Position numbers and translations under genes: made by a program
Shown here: positions 12,768-62,310 of the stretch, one piece after another
How positions within the stretch are numbered: the stretch's first letter is position 1
Layout of the letters: each line of letters opens with the position of its first letter
The notes under the pieces: model-generated
The model's database searches: none
Told to the model about the DNA's origin: nothing
What the model saw: the letters and a program-made list of their open reading frames with translations, nothing else
Source of the DNA: [Clostridium] saccharolyticum WM1
GTDB lineage: Bacteria > Bacillota > Clostridia > Lachnospirales > Lachnospiraceae
Reading direction: 5' to 3'
Assembly (NCBI RefSeq): GCF_000144625.1
Contig: NC_014376.1
Location: forward strand, 2,666,001 to 2,730,000
Length of the DNA stretch: 64,000 bases

Positions 12768-13486
12768 GATTCTTCCTCCTTCTCATAAGATATAAGCAAG
12801 TCCCGGACATCTTTCCTTCTGCGCTGGCTTATAAGCAAATGCTCACCATTCCGCATAATAACTTCCTCATATCTAAATTTAGATACAAAAGCATAGTTAA
12901 TGATGTAAGATCTATGAATTTGAATAAATTGATAGCTGGAAACCTGCGTTAAGACGGCTTCTATTGTGCTGTAAAAACAAACATTACCTTTAGTTGAAAC
13001 TAATTTTATTTCTCTGTCTAAACTTTCAAAATACAAAATATCTTTTATTGGAATCTTATGTACGCTATGACCAATTTTGTATGAAAACACATCATTGCGC
13101 TTCCCCAGGATTTTTAAAGCTAATTTTATATCCGCAATAATTTTCTCTTTCTCTACTGGTTTGGGCAAAAAATGCATGGGCTGCACTTCGAACAGCTGTC
13201 GGTCATAGTTATCCTTTGACGATATGTACACGATATTGGTAATATAATTTTCCAGCTCATTTCGAATCCTGTTCCCAAGCTGAATGCCATTTAAATCCTG
13301 CATTTCAATATCTAAAAATATTAAATCAAATGCATATTCATTTACTATAAATTTATATAAATCACTTCCGGAATAGAAAACCTCAACCTCTAAATGTATG
13401 CCAGATTCCTTTTGAAAATCCAAAATAATTTTTTCTATTTCTGCACAAACTATTTGCTCATCATCACAAACCGCAATTTTCAGCAT
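12758..13486 (-). CDS. agrA: LytTR-family response regulator, AgrA-like
   Basis: A 242-residue regulator. The start is taken as ATG at 13486 (MLKIAVCDDE) because AAGGTGG precedes it; the open frame extends a further eight codons without support. The receiver has Asp59 in FLDIEMQD and the acidic pair at residues 8-9; a LytTR DNA-binding domain fills about 138-235, with the typical FESLDREI and QIHRSYIIN segments. It is the first gene of the agr-like locus and is translationally coupled to the kinase. Candidate targets are the repeats upstream of agrD. Confidence 0.9.
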   Translation of the reverse strand: MLKIAVCDDEQIVCAEIEKIILDFQKESGIHLEVEVFYSGSDLYKFIVNEYAFDLIFLDIEMQDLNGIQLGNRIRNELENYITNIVYISSKDNYDRQLFEVQPMHFLPKPVEKEKIIADIKLALKILGKRNDVFSYKIGHSVHKIPIKDILYFESLDREIKLVSTKGNVCFYSTIEAVLTQVSSYQFIQIHRSYIINYAFVSKFRYEEVIMRNGEHLLISQRRRKDVRDLLISYEKEEESCN

Positions 13487-14070
13487 AAGTCCACCTTCTT
13501 TATCAGCCACTTCTCCTTTGTTTAATCATCATATTTTAATCATTATGGGAGTGTGAGCTTATTTATCCTTTGTTAAATAAAATACATCGCATCTTCCATT
13601 ATAAGGGAGGTCTACCTTTTGTGCATCTACTATTTCCAATTCTCTTTCCCATATTATTTGATAAAACTATCAGCCTTCCTATTTATTTACCGTACTTAAA
13701 ATATACTCAGGGAATTTTGCAGGAACCGCCGTCTCCGGAATAAATGGTATTCAGAAAAATCAAGCCAGCCATCTGGATATGATGTATATGACCAGGACCG
13801 ACAGGAAAAGAACTGATTTCATTCCGATACCGGTAAAATAATTCCGTAAACACCCTTCAAAAATTTTTTTATTCATTTTCTCCATGTCCTCCATGTGCAG
13901 AAAACTGTTAATACCTTCACTAATACTATAATAAGTAACACCGCTTTTTTACAGGTTGTAATTATCGTTAATGATACTTTATTTTTTCGTTTTATGAAAT
14001 CTATCTGGAATTTTTCCTTATATCATGTTAAAATCATATAATAGAGAAATTTTATATGGGGAGGAAAGTC
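13487..14070. other. Divergent intergenic region between agr locus and DUF5131 gene
   Basis: 584 bases without a credible gene. The left part carries the agr operon promoter (13598-13625). The right end carries a TATAAT at 14037-14042 about 30 bases before the DUF5131 start. The middle, around 13700-13850, is less AT rich and may be a decayed coding segment, but no protein was recognised in any frame. Confidence 0.5.
13598..13625 (-). promoter_or_regulatory. Promoter of the agr-like regulator/kinase genes
   Basis: Minus strand: TGCACA (13625-13620), 16 bases, TATAAT (13603-13598), about 110 bases before the regulator start codon. Confidence 0.5.
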
Positions 14071-14778
14071 ATGGCTGTCTGGAATCCATGGAGGGGCTGC
14101 CGCAGGTGCAGCGAAGGCTGTAAATTTTGTTATATTCATAAAGGGGACCGCAAACGAGGGATTAATACGGAAGAGATTATAAAGTCAGATAAATTTGAGG
14201 CACCGGTCGCTAAAAATAAAAAAGGCGAATATAAAATGAAATCTGGGCAAACGGTATATCTCTGTTTTTCCAGTGATTTTTTGATCGAAGAGGCCGATGA
14301 ATGGAGAAATGAATGCTGGGCAATGATGCATCAGCGTCCTGATCTGCATTTTGTCTTTTTAACAAAGCGGATTGATCGATTTTTACAGTGCATTCCAAAA
14401 AACTGGGGGGAAGGTTATGATCATGTAACGGTCGGCTGTACCATTGAAAACCAGGACAGGGCGGATTACCGTCTTCCCATATTCTCCCAGCTTCCCATTA
14501 AACATAAAAATATTATTTGCCAGCCTCTTATCGAGGATATCCACTTAGAAAACTACCTGGAAGGTATCCAACTGGTTGTCGTGGGAGGCGAATCAGATTA
14601 TCATGCAAGGCCCCTTCATTATGACTGGGTTTTATCCTTAAGAGAACAATGTATGGAAAAAGGGGTGCGTTTTCAGTTCCGGCAATGCGGCACTCATTTC
14701 ATTAAGGACGGAAAAGAATTTACCCTGAAGACCAGGGATTTATGCAGCCAGGCGCGAAAGGCCGGGATCGATTGCTGA
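14071..14778 (+). CDS. DUF5131-family protein (phage Gp37/Gp68-like)
   Basis: A 235-residue protein. The ATG at 14071 is preferred over the frame's earlier codon because GGGGAGG lies seven bases before it. The N-terminus has MAVWNPWRG followed by four cysteines, Cys10, Cys13, Cys17 and Cys20 (C-x2-C-x3-C-x2-C), then an aromatic Tyr, which resembles a metal or iron-sulfur binding knuckle as in the radical-SAM-like part of this family. The C-terminal part contains VVVGGESDYHARPL and RFQFRQCGTHF. Relatives occur in phages and in bacteria, and the function is not established. It stands alone beside an IS200/IS605 element, suggesting an acquired segment. Confidence 0.78.
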   Translation: MAVWNPWRGCRRCSEGCKFCYIHKGDRKRGINTEEIIKSDKFEAPVAKNKKGEYKMKSGQTVYLCFSSDFLIEEADEWRNECWAMMHQRPDLHFVFLTKRIDRFLQCIPKNWGEGYDHVTVGCTIENQDRADYRLPIFSQLPIKHKNIICQPLIEDIHLENYLEGIQLVVVGGESDYHARPLHYDWVLSLREQCMEKGVRFQFRQCGTHFIKDGKEFTLKTRDLCSQARKAGIDC

Positions 14779-14886
14779 TACAGTGATCGCAAAATTCCAT
14801 TCCCATACAGTATGCTTCAAAGCAATTACCTGCTGCTCCGGCCCCAATGTTATAACAGGCGAATGAACGGCAGCATTTAGTCAAGA

Positions 14887-14905
14887 CCACCCGTAAAACG
14901 GGTGG
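14887..14905. repeat. Right-end hairpin of IS200/IS605 element
   Basis: CCACCCGT-AAA-ACGGGTGG, a perfect 8-base-pair stem with a 3-base loop, downstream of tnpA. Confidence 0.75.
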
Positions 14906-15027
14906 CTTGTGAAAAGGGTATAACCCTTTGATACTAGGCCAGCGTCTCAAGGCGCTGGCTTTCACTTCGTTCAAGCCACTATGCTTTTGACTCGTCGCCG
15001 CCCCTGAAGGGGCCTTTGTAATACCGA

Positions 15028-15483
15028 CTAACCCTTAAAAGGGTCCTCGTATTCTTTTACACTTAGTTTATCTTGCATAATATCCGCTTTTTCCTGCTCC
15101 TGTATATATTTTCGGATGGTGTCCTCATTTAGTCCTACTGTGCTTACATAGTATCCTTCCGACCAAAAATGTCGGTTTCCGAATTTATACTTTAGGTTTG
15201 CGTGGCGATCAAACATCATAAGGGCGGATTTGCCTTTCAGATAACCCATAAAACTGGATACGCTAATTTTAGGCGGAATACTTACCAGCATATGTACATG
15301 ATCCGGCATAATATGGCCTTCTAAGATTTGGACCCCCTTATAATTACATAGTTGCTTCAAGACTTCTCTCAAATCTTCCTTGTATTGATTATAAATTACT
15401 TTTCGTCTATACTTAGGTGTGAAGACGATATGATATTTGCACATCCATTTCGTGTGTGCCAGTTCATTGGCTTTCTTCGCCAT
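15028..15483 (-). CDS. tnpA: IS200/IS605-family transposase (HUH, Y1)
   Basis: A 151-residue Y1 transposase. The ATG at 15483 is chosen for GGAAAGGTGATTTCA upstream; the frame extends further without support. It carries the histidine pair of the HUH metal site in PDHVHMLV (His62, His64) and the candidate nucleophile Tyr126 in the helix IRKYIQEQ; FWSEGYYVSTVG is characteristic. The protein cuts and rejoins single-stranded element ends as a dimer. The gene looks intact at full family length, so the element may still be active. Confidence 0.93.
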   Translation of the reverse strand: MAKKANELAHTKWMCKYHIVFTPKYRRKVIYNQYKEDLREVLKQLCNYKGVQILEGHIMPDHVHMLVSIPPKISVSSFMGYLKGKSALMMFDRHANLKYKFGNRHFWSEGYYVSTVGLNEDTIRKYIQEQEKADIMQDKLSVKEYEDPFKG

Positions 15484-15569
15484 TGAAATCACCTTTCCTT
15501 TCTCTAATAGTGGCTTGGACACCTCTATTATAATCGGAAAGGTGATTTTTTGTATAACTTACTGACTCG

Positions 15570-58286: not shown

Positions 58287-58955
58287 CTATCTCAGACTGT
58301 CCTCAGCCAGCAGTTCCAGGCCCTTTTCATCAAGCAGCTCCACGCTGCCCCTGGTGATCCTTACCAGATGTTCCGTCTGAAACAGCCGTAAAAGCCGGGT
58401 CACCACTTCTCTTGCCGTTCCCAGGTGATGGGCGATCTGCTCATGGGTGATGGAAAGCTCCCTGGAACCGGTAAGCCTTTCCTCTTCCAAAAGAAAGGCG
58501 GCCAGGCGGCCATCCATTTTCTTATTTAAGACCTGATCCATCAGCCACATGACATCGGAAAAACGGGAAGCCATCAGCTCATTGGTAAAATTGGAGACTA
58601 CTGCCGACTGCTCCATCAGCCTTTTGTAAACCTCCGGCGGTACCACGGTTACCACAGATTCCTGCTCCGCTTCCACCGTCACATCAAACTGGATATTTTT
58701 AACCATGCAGGGACCGGAAAAAAGGCAAATATCCCTTTCCAGCAAGCGGTAAAGGGTCAGTTCCCTCCCCTCATCGGATATCATGAAAACCCTAAGCTGC
58801 CCTGCGGATACCAGCAACAGTCCGCTGCAGCCATCTGCCCCGCCATGGACCAGCATACCCTTTTCAAACCTGACTTCCCTGGCATTTTCTTTTAAGAGCA
58901 TTCTTTGTCTTTCCGTCAGCTTATTCCAGAAAGGAAGGTATTCTCCCAACACCAT
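58287..58955 (-). CDS. Crp/Fnr-family transcriptional regulator
   Basis: A 222-residue regulator. ATG 58955 is chosen from CGGAGGTTG upstream; the frame's N-terminal extension overlaps the FokI-like gene. An effector domain of the cyclic-nucleotide-binding fold spans about 10-125 (GMLVHGGADGCSGLL), followed by a long helix and a winged helix-turn-helix (about 150-215, THEQIAHHLGTAREVVTRLL). No Fnr-type N-terminal cysteine cluster is seen, only Cys40 and Cys74. It starts 19 bases after the FokI-like gene, so the two probably share a transcript; the SulP gene downstream is a possible target. Confidence 0.9.
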   Translation of the reverse strand: MVLGEYLPFWNKLTERQRMLLKENAREVRFEKGMLVHGGADGCSGLLLVSAGQLRVFMISDEGRELTLYRLLERDICLFSGPCMVKNIQFDVTVEAEQESVVTVVPPEVYKRLMEQSAVVSNFTNELMASRFSDVMWLMDQVLNKKMDGRLAAFLLEEERLTGSRELSITHEQIAHHLGTAREVVTRLLRLFQTEHLVRITRGSVELLDEKGLELLAEDSLR

Positions 58956-58974
58956 ATTATCAACCTCCGTGTAC

Positions 58975-60708
58975 CTAAGAACATTGAAACGCAATCTCAT
59001 CATTGCAGTCAAAAAGTGCAAAACATTCTTTATAGCCCAGTCTTCCGGATTTGAGTTCTTCCGCCATCAAAAGAAGATTCATGGAATTGACAGCAGCCCC
59101 GCAGATTCCCGAACGCATCCGGATGTTATCAAGCCTCTCCTTAAATCCCCCGGTAAAGGTCCCTGAAACAAAAGCAAAATGATACCGTACCACGTCTTTA
59201 TCAAAGATCTCCCACCATTTGTTTGGATTAAGCCTCTCGTTTCTCTCCTTGTTCTCCTCTATGTAGCGGTACATCTCGTCAGCCTGCTTAATGGGTAGGG
59301 AATATCCCTTTCCGTAAGCCTTATTATCTAGGATCAGCCCGTCTTCCCCGTAATACACGCACACATCCGGTTTCCTCGTGTCCCCAAGCCTGGCTCCCTT
59401 AAAATCCAGCTCGGCCGTCAAAAGCTGGGCCGTCTGGATCTCATAATCCCTGTCTGAAGTGCCGTCAAATCCCAGATCCAAAAGGATCAGATATTTATGA
59501 TCCACATGAGTTAAATGGGATCTTAAAATATCCTTGCATAGGGACACCTCTGATTTCACCGGTGCCGGTTCCTGGTCTTCATAAGGCAGTTCAAGGCCGA
59601 TTATTTCATCCATGATCCGATAGGAACCTCCTGTCTTCTTCACATGCAGCCCGATATTTTCAAAGCTTCGGATGTCATCAAGAATGGTCTCTTCCTCCTC
59701 TTCCATGCCAGCCGTCTTTAAATACGCCTTTATCTGCAAGGGGGAACGGTAGGCCCCTTCCAGGTATTTAATAATATGAGTCCTCCTGCTGCGTAAATAG
59801 TCCCGGTCAGCTACCTTGGTCGCCAGCATATCCCACAACACCCGCTTGGGGATTCTGGGAAATTTGGAAACACCGGTAACATGCTTTAATATGGTTCTTC
59901 CCTTTAAGGTCAGCTGGTATGACTGGGGAATGGTTCCTGTATAGGCCCTGCCTCCTATGGAAGCAGTCACCTCTTTCGACACCTTAATGACCCAGCCCAT
60001 CTGTAAAAGCCAGCTGCAGATAGTCCTGACATATTTATCACTGGTACCTTCCGTATCCTGAAGAAGCTTTGTCTTCTCTTCTCTTGCCTCCGCTTCCGTC
60101 AGACCCTGAAGGATCATGTACTGGGGAATGGAAGTAAATCCGGCCTCTCCGATAAAACCAAGCCTTGCCCCGATCTCAAACTTTGTCAGATGTCCTTCTT
60201 CTCCCAGCAGGGACAGAACCCTGCATACGGGCGGGTAAGATAAAAATGCATTTTTTAATGCGAAAGCCTCCTCTTCGCTGCCCGCAGGCGCAACCGCATA
60301 CAGCCGGCCCAGAGCGGACAGAGAGCAGACATCCTCCTTCCGGCTGTAATCAAGAAAACCAATGCTGACTGCCCATCTTAAAAAGGAATCAGCGGGCCAG
60401 TCGCTTTGGTATTCTTTCCTTTGCCCGGGCAGAACTGCCTGAATGATCCCGGAACAGGGGGCATTGCTCCTTGTATACCCCACAGGTGTCCCCTTTCCCT
60501 TTAAATGGGGATAAGGGATGGAAATTTCATTCCCGCTTAATTCCTGTATAAACTCATCTCTCCCGTCTTTTTCCGAAATAAGCCTGGGGATCTTATCCAT
60601 ACGCAGGCTCCTGTTAATCGCTGAATCCGGTACAAACGCGGAAACCACTTTTTTTAAGTTTTCCAGGGTATAGGCCTCCTGTACCCATCCAAATGTCCGA
60701 TCTGCCAC
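58975..60708 (-). CDS. FokI-like type IIS restriction endonuclease
   Basis: A 577-residue protein, the length of FokI (579-583). The start is GTG 60708 with GAGAGGAAATAACA before it, giving an N-terminus MADRTFGWVQ that lines up with the FokI RTFGWVQ. The recognition half (about 1-375) shares long blocks with FokI: TRSNAPC at 79-85, FLRWA 109-113, HLTKFEIG 173-180, GEAGFTS 187-193, and RIPKRVLWDMLAT 285-297. The nuclease half (384-577) keeps RKPD448 and D461-N-K463, matching catalytic FokI Asp450, Asp467, Lys469, and the dimer pair Asp477/Arg481 (FokI Asp483/Arg487). Cleavage outside GGATG is the expected activity. No methyltransferase gene is nearby. Confidence 0.93.
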   Translation of the reverse strand: MADRTFGWVQEAYTLENLKKVVSAFVPDSAINRSLRMDKIPRLISEKDGRDEFIQELSGNEISIPYPHLKGKGTPVGYTRSNAPCSGIIQAVLPGQRKEYQSDWPADSFLRWAVSIGFLDYSRKEDVCSLSALGRLYAVAPAGSEEEAFALKNAFLSYPPVCRVLSLLGEEGHLTKFEIGARLGFIGEAGFTSIPQYMILQGLTEAEAREEKTKLLQDTEGTSDKYVRTICSWLLQMGWVIKVSKEVTASIGGRAYTGTIPQSYQLTLKGRTILKHVTGVSKFPRIPKRVLWDMLATKVADRDYLRSRRTHIIKYLEGAYRSPLQIKAYLKTAGMEEEEETILDDIRSFENIGLHVKKTGGSYRIMDEIIGLELPYEDQEPAPVKSEVSLCKDILRSHLTHVDHKYLILLDLGFDGTSDRDYEIQTAQLLTAELDFKGARLGDTRKPDVCVYYGEDGLILDNKAYGKGYSLPIKQADEMYRYIEENKERNERLNPNKWWEIFDKDVVRYHFAFVSGTFTGGFKERLDNIRMRSGICGAAVNSMNLLLMAEELKSGRLGYKECFALFDCNDEIAFQCS

Positions 60709-60803
60709 TGTTATTTCCTCTCTGTGCAATTCCTTTTTCCTGCCCGCATTCTTTAGGCAGAGCCCCTCTTTTACTGGGTGTAAAGCCACAGGGTATTTTC
60801 TTC

Positions 60804-61020: not shown

Positions 61021-62190
61021 TCAGGGAACTGTTCCGATCTTCGGCTCCGCTGTCCTCTCCGCTCCAATGGGTCTTACGGTGATCCCGTTGATTTCCACAT
61101 GCTCGCTGATGCCGATCACGATACATGGACGGCCGTCGATCATCCGGTTTTCCACCAGATGGGTCTTATCAGGCGCCACCTTGATGCTCACATCCGCAGT
61201 TTTGATCTCAAAGCTTTTGGTATTGACCACATTGGAGGCCAGGAAGGGAGGCACCGACGGTTCTTCACTCTCCCCATAACGCTGTTCAAACTCTTCCAGC
61301 TTTTCCTGGCTGGCTCCATTATTCTCTAAAAGCCGTTTCATCTGATACTTATCCAGGGTAAAGGGGGCCGGTTCATCCTTTGTTTCCTCCAGAATCTCAT
61401 TTAAGCTCTCGTGAAGGCTTTTAACCGTCTCAAAATCGCAGTTATCTCCCAGAGTTTCTTCCACAATCGCCTGGAAGGTCTCTTTCTGGCTCTTGGCGGA
61501 CATAGGTATCACACAGCCAAGCAGTTCGTCAATCAGGCGCTCCGGCATCTGCTCCGGGTTTTTGGCATAGTATAAGAGACTGTGTATATCTGTATTCCTG
61601 TCTGTAAAGGACGGAAATAAGAAGCCGGTTTCAGGAGCCTCTACAATCCAGTCCCTGCTGCGGTTTTGGATTGCGTTTGCCTCGGTATTGTAGCAAAGGC
61701 CTGCTTTCGACAGCTTTACCGGACAAATGGTACACTGGATGAATTCATAGACAAAATCTGAGGCATCATACATTTCCAGTCCATCGGATGATCTTGCGGG
61801 AATATCGTAGGCACAATGGATGAGGATGATATAAAAATTCTCTCCGTAATCATAGCTGGCAATGACCTTGTCGTAGAATTCCTCTATCAGTGCGTCATCC
61901 TTTAACTGGCTGTCCCGAAGCTTTAAAAGGAAATTCTGGGTTCCTCCCTCGGCCTCTGTATGTAAGGGAAATTCCATATTTACCATATTCTTGCCGATGG
62001 TTCCTGACAGAGCACTTCTGAAAATGTTGAAATACTTAAACGCTTCTTCCTCGGGGAGGGATAGAAATGCCTCCTTCAGCTCCGTCCGTTTGTTCTTTTC
62101 CGCGTCCACATAGCAGCCGCAGATCCGGCTGATGGCACAGTTGGCCGGAGTAAAAAGTTTCTTTATTTCGTTGGCTTCTTTCTTATTCAT
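61021..62190 (-). CDS. DUF4317-family protein
   Basis: A 389-residue protein of a family common in Lachnospiraceae with no known role. ATG 62190 is chosen for AGGAGAAGACC upstream. It begins MNKKEANEIKKLF, has a patch of cysteines (CAISRICGCY, about 18-27; CTICPVKLSKAGLCYN near 156-171) and ends with a KTHLVENRMIDGRPCIVIGI segment. No membrane helix, signal peptide or nuclease/methyltransferase motif (no FxGxG or DPPY/NPPY) was seen, so it is not the missing methylase of the restriction gene downstream. Confidence 0.82.
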   Translation of the reverse strand: MNKKEANEIKKLFTPANCAISRICGCYVDAEKNKRTELKEAFLSLPEEEAFKYFNIFRSALSGTIGKNMVNMEFPLHTEAEGGTQNFLLKLRDSQLKDDALIEEFYDKVIASYDYGENFYIILIHCAYDIPARSSDGLEMYDASDFVYEFIQCTICPVKLSKAGLCYNTEANAIQNRSRDWIVEAPETGFLFPSFTDRNTDIHSLLYYAKNPEQMPERLIDELLGCVIPMSAKSQKETFQAIVEETLGDNCDFETVKSLHESLNEILEETKDEPAPFTLDKYQMKRLLENNGASQEKLEEFEQRYGESEEPSVPPFLASNVVNTKSFEIKTADVSIKVAPDKTHLVENRMIDGRPCIVIGISEHVEINGITVRPIGAERTAEPKIGTVP

Positions 62191-62310
62191 TCTACGGTCT
62201 TCTCCTATTCTAAAGTAAAGCTGCAAAATAATACTAGAGCAAATCAGGACAGAAGTCAAGAATTGGTATTGCTAAAGCAGGCTCATTGTTTCTCCTCTCT
62301 TTTCAATAGT

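Follow-up and report, generated by a model that had tools for sequence, protein, structure and literature searches.

Candidate methyltransferase partners in trans for a FokI-type restriction endonuclease of [Clostridium] saccharolyticum and its relatives

The genome of [Clostridium] saccharolyticum WM1 contains a gene for a FokI-like restriction endonuclease, here called R, with neighbours of other kinds, and the question is which methyltransferase (MTase), if any, protects the chromosome from its product. In the FokI type example the MTase gene is adjacent to the R gene. A preliminary description of this locus considered a methylase elsewhere in the genome, a changed recognition, and a solitary nuclease with another use. 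The genome is a single contig of 4,662,871 bp; the window, that is, the whole stretch of DNA that was analysed (64 kb), covers its positions 2666001-2730000. The features discussed are listed in Table 1.

Table 1. The endonuclease gene, its neighbours and the candidate MTase genes (positions of the first three rows refer to the window, those of the last row to the contig).
Feature	Position	Strand	Remarks
R, FokI-type type IIS restriction endonuclease	58975..60708	-	577 aa, GTG start; Pfam and PDB matches
DUF4317-type gene, upstream of R	61021..62259	-	name from the preliminary description; neighbour, outside the system
Crp/Fnr-type regulator, downstream of R	58287..59021	-	name from the preliminary description; neighbour, outside the system
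M1-M2 pair	G000:C1:4224537-4226422	-	PF02086 in both

The R protein has the domain plan of FokI, the recognition domains D1-D2-D3 being followed in order by a PD-D/EXK cleavage domain, and it shares the catalytic and dimerisation residues of that enzyme. Four Pfam domains (FokI_D1, FokI_dom_2, FokI_D3, FokI_cleav_dom) score above the cut-off, and residues 4-571 align with PDB 2fok at E 8.6e-122, far past chance. The claim of a complete FokI-like endonuclease is thus borne out by an intact frame of 577 aa, and the nuclease residues named with it (Asp448, Asp461, Lys463 and the dimer residues Asp477/Arg481) are correct, as they align with FokI D450, D467, K469, D483 and R487. All five are identical in 35 of 35 aligned proteins, 20 of the separated group defined below (our own included) and 15 of the linked group. 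Translation probably starts at the GTG at 60708, since homologues open with [MV]A[DE]RTFGW; this codon is preceded by an AGAGG-like ribosome site. An alternative GTG at 60789 would give a protein of 604 aa. Among NCBIfam models R had only a weak match far under the cut-off (EreD), and PF05869 gave 0 matches. In the R tree the protein is remote from FokI (long branch). The possibility that R is broken or misread was ruled out by the open frame, the Pfam domains, dN/dS and the kept residues.

No MTase gene was detected next to R. The genome-wide profile matches to PF02086 and PF01555 include none inside the window, the motif [DNS]PP[YFWH] occurs in 0 of its 54 open frames of at least 120 aa, and tblastn with the candidate partners M1 and M2 described below gave nothing in the 64 kb. 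For these profiles, motif and queries, the earlier statement that the window holds no MTase gene stands. The Crp/Fnr frame overlaps the end of R by at most 47 bases. Lack of sites cannot protect the host if GGATG is the target, because there are 202 GGATG sites in the window, compared with 177 expected; protection by missing sites was rejected on this condition. Two minor observations were made. A minus-strand frame at window positions 15028-15558, presumably resembling an IS200/IS605-type transposase, has SKPLLEKGKVISMAKKANELAHTKWMC in common with a frame at L015 7567-8061, and at least two copies occur in the genome. At L018 8426-9577 (minus strand), a collagen-like protein of 383 aa with GPTGPTG repeats is encoded beside a gene with two-piece PF01555 matches.

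Candidate partners were found on the same chromosome, 1,500,056 bp from R (R to M1, midpoint to midpoint). PF02086 matches the genome in seven places, two of which are M1 (349 aa) and M2 (282 aa), D12 adenine-MTase genes that overlap by 10 bases. On the PADLOC profile PDLC03287 (type II MTase, 646 positions) M1 covers positions 1-339 (E 3.2e-127) and M2 positions 362-641 (E 1.3e-106). Hence two D12 units cover both halves of one two-headed profile, as in the M.FokI type, and it is through this profile that the two systems are likened; here, however, the units are two genes and two chains, not one, and lie far from R. M2 scores above the cut-off of the Dam model TIGR00571 and M1 does not. M2 also matches solved DNA adenine methylases, and no match for M1 was found among solved structures. 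Another D12 MTase as a better partner was rejected: with M1 and M2 as queries only the two genes themselves were matched at E 1e-10, so the other five PF02086 matches (L004-L008) are distant. The genome search for N6-adenine methylases suggested in the preliminary description thus yielded a candidate pair, in support of its option of a methylase elsewhere. Of its refuting condition, a GGATG methylase gene together with full GGATG/CATCC modification, the gene part has candidates. Its assumption that FokI-type systems carry a two-headed methylase is true of FokI itself, but two separate MTases are common in type IIS systems (PMC4081073).

Very probably, R belongs as the restriction component to a type IIS restriction-modification (R-M) system with separated genes, stable in its lineage, served by M1-M2 in trans and probably chimeric. 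R and the candidate MTase genes are unlinked in the genome, which is the mark of a separated type II R-M system. In the mechanism predicted from the sequences, M1 and M2 would each methylate one strand of the asymmetric site of R, this methylation would protect the chromosome in trans from a distance of about 1.50 Mb, and R would cut unmethylated incoming DNA as a dimerising type IIS nuclease. The methylation and cleavage activities of the three proteins are predictions. That R restricts DNA, and does so at a GGATG/CATCC site methylated by M1 and M2, is our inference.

FokI recognises GGATG and cleaves at 9/13, and M.FokI methylates adenine in GGATG and CATCC. In FokI, the residues Q12, N13, R79, W105, W219, E220, K225 and R228 contact bases. 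Six of them are kept in R (Q12, R79, W105, E220, K225, R228), W219 is replaced by T, and N13 by E. The latter replacement is found in 20 of 20 separated and 14 of 15 linked proteins (the other having a gap), and D occupies the position in G166. A literature search on FokI base contacts found no paper. The FokI mutant N13Y is described as binding-deficient (PMC4081073), and because of N13 to E the site of R may differ from GGATG, in line with the preliminary option of a changed recognition, although most of the aligned recognition residues are kept. A fused GATG/CATC MTase of Mycoplasma hominis gave full protection from FokI only with both of its halves (PMC12898733). In Streptococcus equi, m6A was reported at CATCC or GGATG/CATCC (PMC8202921, PMC8754150), which does not fix the specificity here.

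Co-occurrence of R with M1 and M2 was analysed in three overlapping sets: genomes of the family, genomes of the genus (Lacrimispora) and a set of named loci. A FokI cleavage-domain match is present in 17 of the 397 family genomes and is strong (E 2.3e-56 or better) in 11. Six weak matches (E 2.9e-4 to 1.2e-18) were not scored as full FokI homologues, and neither M1 nor M2 has a match in these six genomes. In the 11 genomes the relatives of R cover most of the protein in tblastn (fragmented in G386, interrupted by a contig break in G269), and all 11 have both M1 and M2. M1 at E 6.4e-83 or better is found in 14 of the 397 genomes, 11 of which have R; the chance of all 11 R falling within these 14 is 4e-19, assuming independent genomes, which they are not. 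The R and M genes are linked in G126, G166, G291, G318, G386 and G269, and separated in G000, G321 and G046 (on one contig) and in G033 and G361 (on different contigs). Genomes of the latter kind, with R and M apart, are below called the separated group.

The named set consists of 40 loci. The whole-genome search for M1 took in 30 of them, and M1 is present in all 30. In 20 of the 40 loci (L099-L116, L128, L133) no M1 or M2 was observed in the R flanks examined, one of the two flanks being short in L104, L107 and L115; all 20 genomes have M1 elsewhere, 77-89% identical. In the genus, R is present in 24 of 25 genomes, M1 in 25 of 25, and M2 adjoins M1 in 25 of 25 (primary M1 loci); the one genome lacking R has a completeness of 67%. 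In none of the 24 R-bearing genomes are R and M1 linked: nine have them on one contig, separated by at least 1.2 Mb, and the other 15 on different contigs. The shorter distance between R and M1 is 1.2 to 1.6 Mb in seven single-contig genomes (two lengths rounded), and the values for G321 (1.22 Mb) and G444 (2.58 Mb) were taken along contigs short of whole chromosomes. In Hungatella G046 the distance is 1.63 Mb. In these overlapping sets a full FokI-type R was accompanied by M1 in every genome searched (11/11, 30/30 and 24/24). If M1-M2 were core genes for some other reason, co-occurrence inside one genus would be weak evidence of partnership. Among 72,556 plasmid records 13 match R, all at less than 60% identity, so no near relative of R was observed on plasmids.

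Some other FokI-related proteins were encountered. Those of the loci L029-L032 (G110, G082, G061, G149), about 520-530 aa long, combine a FokI cleavage domain with a different N-terminus, which is NYWWVTRPKRKL in three of them and a variant in L031; no match to M1 or M2 at E 1e-10 was found in these genomes.

Selection on the genes was estimated from nine pairs. The dN/dS values are 0.055-0.094 for R, 0.04-0.092 for M1, 0.017-0.105 for M2 and 0.009-0.106 for the neighbours; they are rough, because several dS exceed 0.8. The value for R is low and within the range of its neighbours, and therefore R is maintained: it is under purifying selection. This bears on the possibility that R is a solitary nuclease repurposed beyond restriction, or inactive. 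The window without a detected MTase and the flanks of the 20 separated named loci are consistent with it, as is one R frame of the 20, that of L128, where R and M1 are both broken, by decay or by sequencing error. However, R is one full-length open frame in the other 19, selection preserves it, the catalytic and dimerisation residues are the same throughout, and MTases are present in trans, so this explanation is highly improbable. The preliminary idea of a solitary nuclease with another use finds no support, since a relative of M1 is present in all the genomes with a full FokI-type R whose whole sequence was searched.

The flanking genes of both loci were searched in the relatives. The R and M loci proved to be nearly constant, and to lie in different neighbourhoods. 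The DUF4317 gene adjoins R in 19 of 20 genus loci (L080 and L103 come from one genome), the exception, L104, beginning at the edge of its contig. On its other side R has Crp and/or SulP genes in all 20. The M locus of our genome lies between what we take to be a gene for a binding protein of the spermidine/putrescine type and a GGDEF gene. A potD-type gene adjoins M in 16 of the 17 other genus loci (not in L197), and a GGDEF gene likewise in 16 of 17 (not in L207); all flanking names save DUF4317 and Crp (SulP, potD-type, GGDEF) are presumptive. In UBA5385, DUF4317 still adjoins R. In Hungatella, Crp is the sole R neighbour kept (L081, L082, L116, L133), and different genes flank M (L086, L087).

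The trees of R and of the MTases are in conflict. The linked systems of gut Clostridia (L117, L118, L122-L125, L127, L134 and others; R 54-66% identical) have the same plan of two separate MTase genes as here, with M1-M2 directly upstream of R and from another M branch. The named linked loci in which R gives one alignment have R 61-66% identical (54-55% in two), whereas their M1 is only 39-44% and their M2 43-48% identical, L120 M2 being set apart. Within the separated group, identities are 70-89% for R and 77-89% for M1, and thus M1 is not the faster-evolving gene. The R tree was built for 25 of the 40 named loci. Near-duplicates (L104, L108, L111, L113-L115) and broken, partial or unneeded sequences (L119, L121, L126, L128-L130, L135, L137, L138) were left out, as were the R of G386, which is broken, and that of L128, which has a frameshift; the R of G291 is represented by an open piece of 448 aa only. 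This tree places the separated group within the linked R, beside L127 and L134 (support 99/96), and a single clade of all linked R is rejected (p-AU 0.0025).

In the M1 tree, linked M1 together with G132 form one clade (100/99), with the separated group outside. Placement of the separated genes with L127 and L134 is rejected for M1 (p-AU 1e-48) and for M2 (p-AU 9e-7). For M2 the conflict with nesting among the inner linked genes is weak (p-AU 0.026 only), and one clade of linked M2 is rejected (0.0019), as expected, since the set included L120 with its separated-type M2. In all topology tests the groups were chosen after the identities had been seen, and the trees contain several long branches.

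MTases from phage, viral and plasmid contigs were added in a concatenated M tree, from which L120 (MTases of two types), L224 (partial) and G063, G087 and G132 (not both MTases in the set) were left out. The separated group and six phage or viral-contig pairs form one clade (99/96), with the pair of Streptococcus phage Javan105 nearest to the separated group (100/98). The other side consists of 20 rows with MTases adjoining an R (98/86); among them L220-L223 came via the R search, which selected for their linkage to R. The Javan105 pair (M1 71%, M2 65%) and those of L224-L229 are the nearest outside relatives of the Lacrimispora M pair. A FokI-like R was found near none of the seven separated-type pairs (L217, L224-L229) in the stretches examined, that of L224 being 4.6 kb long. 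Tail genes are beside M1-M2 in L229 and an annotated integrase in L217; the phage nature of L225 and L228 is less clear. For M1 alone, the viral-contig scan gave no relative. In the protein database the best 120 of 2269 matches to the M1 lineage were listed, with gene surroundings mostly out of view. A third MTase, of PF01555 type, follows M2 in three of the four contigs scanned (cassettes of all three MTases at L217 4501-7547, L225 8001-10926, L229 7980-10907), and none was found after M2 in the fourth, L228. On L225, a contig of a viral collection, a GmrSD-type restriction gene lies near this cassette (13267-15288, minus strand).

Judging from these sequences, the system is probably chimeric, with parts from different lineages: R probably comes from a branch that normally has adjoining M1-M2, and M1-M2 from a branch that has no R where the surroundings are visible. 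The root of the trees is uncertain, so either part may be the one that was replaced. One alternative is that a linked system was split by one ancestral rearrangement, R and M being original partners and the tree conflict an artefact of rates or long branches. Rearrangement is a described route of separation (PMC3488263), and R and M are both common to Lacrimispora, Hungatella and UBA5385, whose rows group together in the R tree as well as in the concatenated M tree. However, the greater divergence of M1 and M2 than of R at the linked loci, with M1 not faster, the rejection both of M grouped like R and of one linked-R clade, and the clustering of the M pair with pairs that have no R nearby make it unlikely.

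Natural mixtures of the two MTase types were also observed. The gene order in L120 is linked-type M1, R, separated-type M2, the latter being the only M2 found in that genome. In L126 a linked-type M2 adjoins R and no M1 is there; elsewhere in this metagenome bin M1 is present in two fragments, 67% and 74% identical to our M1 (separated type). Other genomes have MTases without R. In G132 a linked-type M1 and a separated-type M2 (72%) are on different contigs, M2 adjoining relatives of fM3-fM0 of our M locus, and no R was found. In G063 (89% complete) M1 (67%) and M2 (66%) are on different contigs and no R was found. In G087 M1 was found, and M2 and R were not. The mixtures suggest that the two MTase types are interchangeable beside the same kind of R. 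If the R of the mixed genomes is active, they imply one shared target, with binning errors possible.

Two kinds of observation, co-occurrence and natural mixtures, bear on whether the MTases would recognise the target of R. Both speak against the possibility that R and M1-M2 are functionally unrelated, the target of R having shifted, the host being protected otherwise, and M1-M2 being orphan epigenetic MTases. The replacement of N13 by E would agree with this, and so would the relatives of M1 and/or M2 without R in G063, G132 and G087 and the seven pairs of the same branch with no R in the stretches examined. Yet no full FokI-type R was observed without M1, and L120 and L126 suggest that the MTase types substitute for each other; we consider such independence quite improbable.

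Separated R-M systems as such are on record, and 57 of them were predicted in 1040 genomes by Ershova et al. 2012. According to that paper (PMC3488263), separated systems are rare and represent dead-end branches, the known functional ones are of type I, and the routes proposed are rearrangement or transfer of R into a genome with a suitable MTase. An intact R and remote MTase genes are common to those type II systems and to ours; the difference is that here the split spans a genus and some relatives, at nearly constant loci, with an M partner that is apparently not the original one. As separation is already known, the novelty lies in the core, nearly constant and apparently chimeric state. Nor are lineage-stable restriction systems new, given StyLT/SenTFI of Salmonella, a type III system (PMC12707154). 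It is stable in its lineage rather than mobile, as here, the types being III and IIS, respectively. Our literature search found no paper on a separated FokI-type system like that described here, and none on MTase exchange. Among the matches listed, those on FokI homologues in Lachnospiraceae were genome-editing and unrelated papers, and none on methylomes showed Lacrimispora.

The StyLT/SenTFI genes are linked, whereas here R and M are apart. Type II systems are commonly regarded as mobile and addictive pairs of linked genes (PMC3488263). We lean slightly towards a different picture for the present one: R would be a core, non-mobile gene of the genus, its antidote a captured M1-M2 pair of a lineage that is elsewhere found without R, on phages or mobile elements, and R, M1 and M2 exchangeable modules that share one site. 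If so, the system would be a set of modules rather than one selfish linked unit. If confirmed, it would be an example, open to direct testing, of a restriction system that has become an established function of its host, with a methylase of phage lineage acting as host antidote.

Finally, a second FokI-type system was observed in addition to the separated core system at L192 (G433:C89), by coordinates in the Lacrimispora defluvii genome of L107. Here a fused MTase frame of 674 aa, 42-49% identical to M1 and M2, adjoins a distant R.
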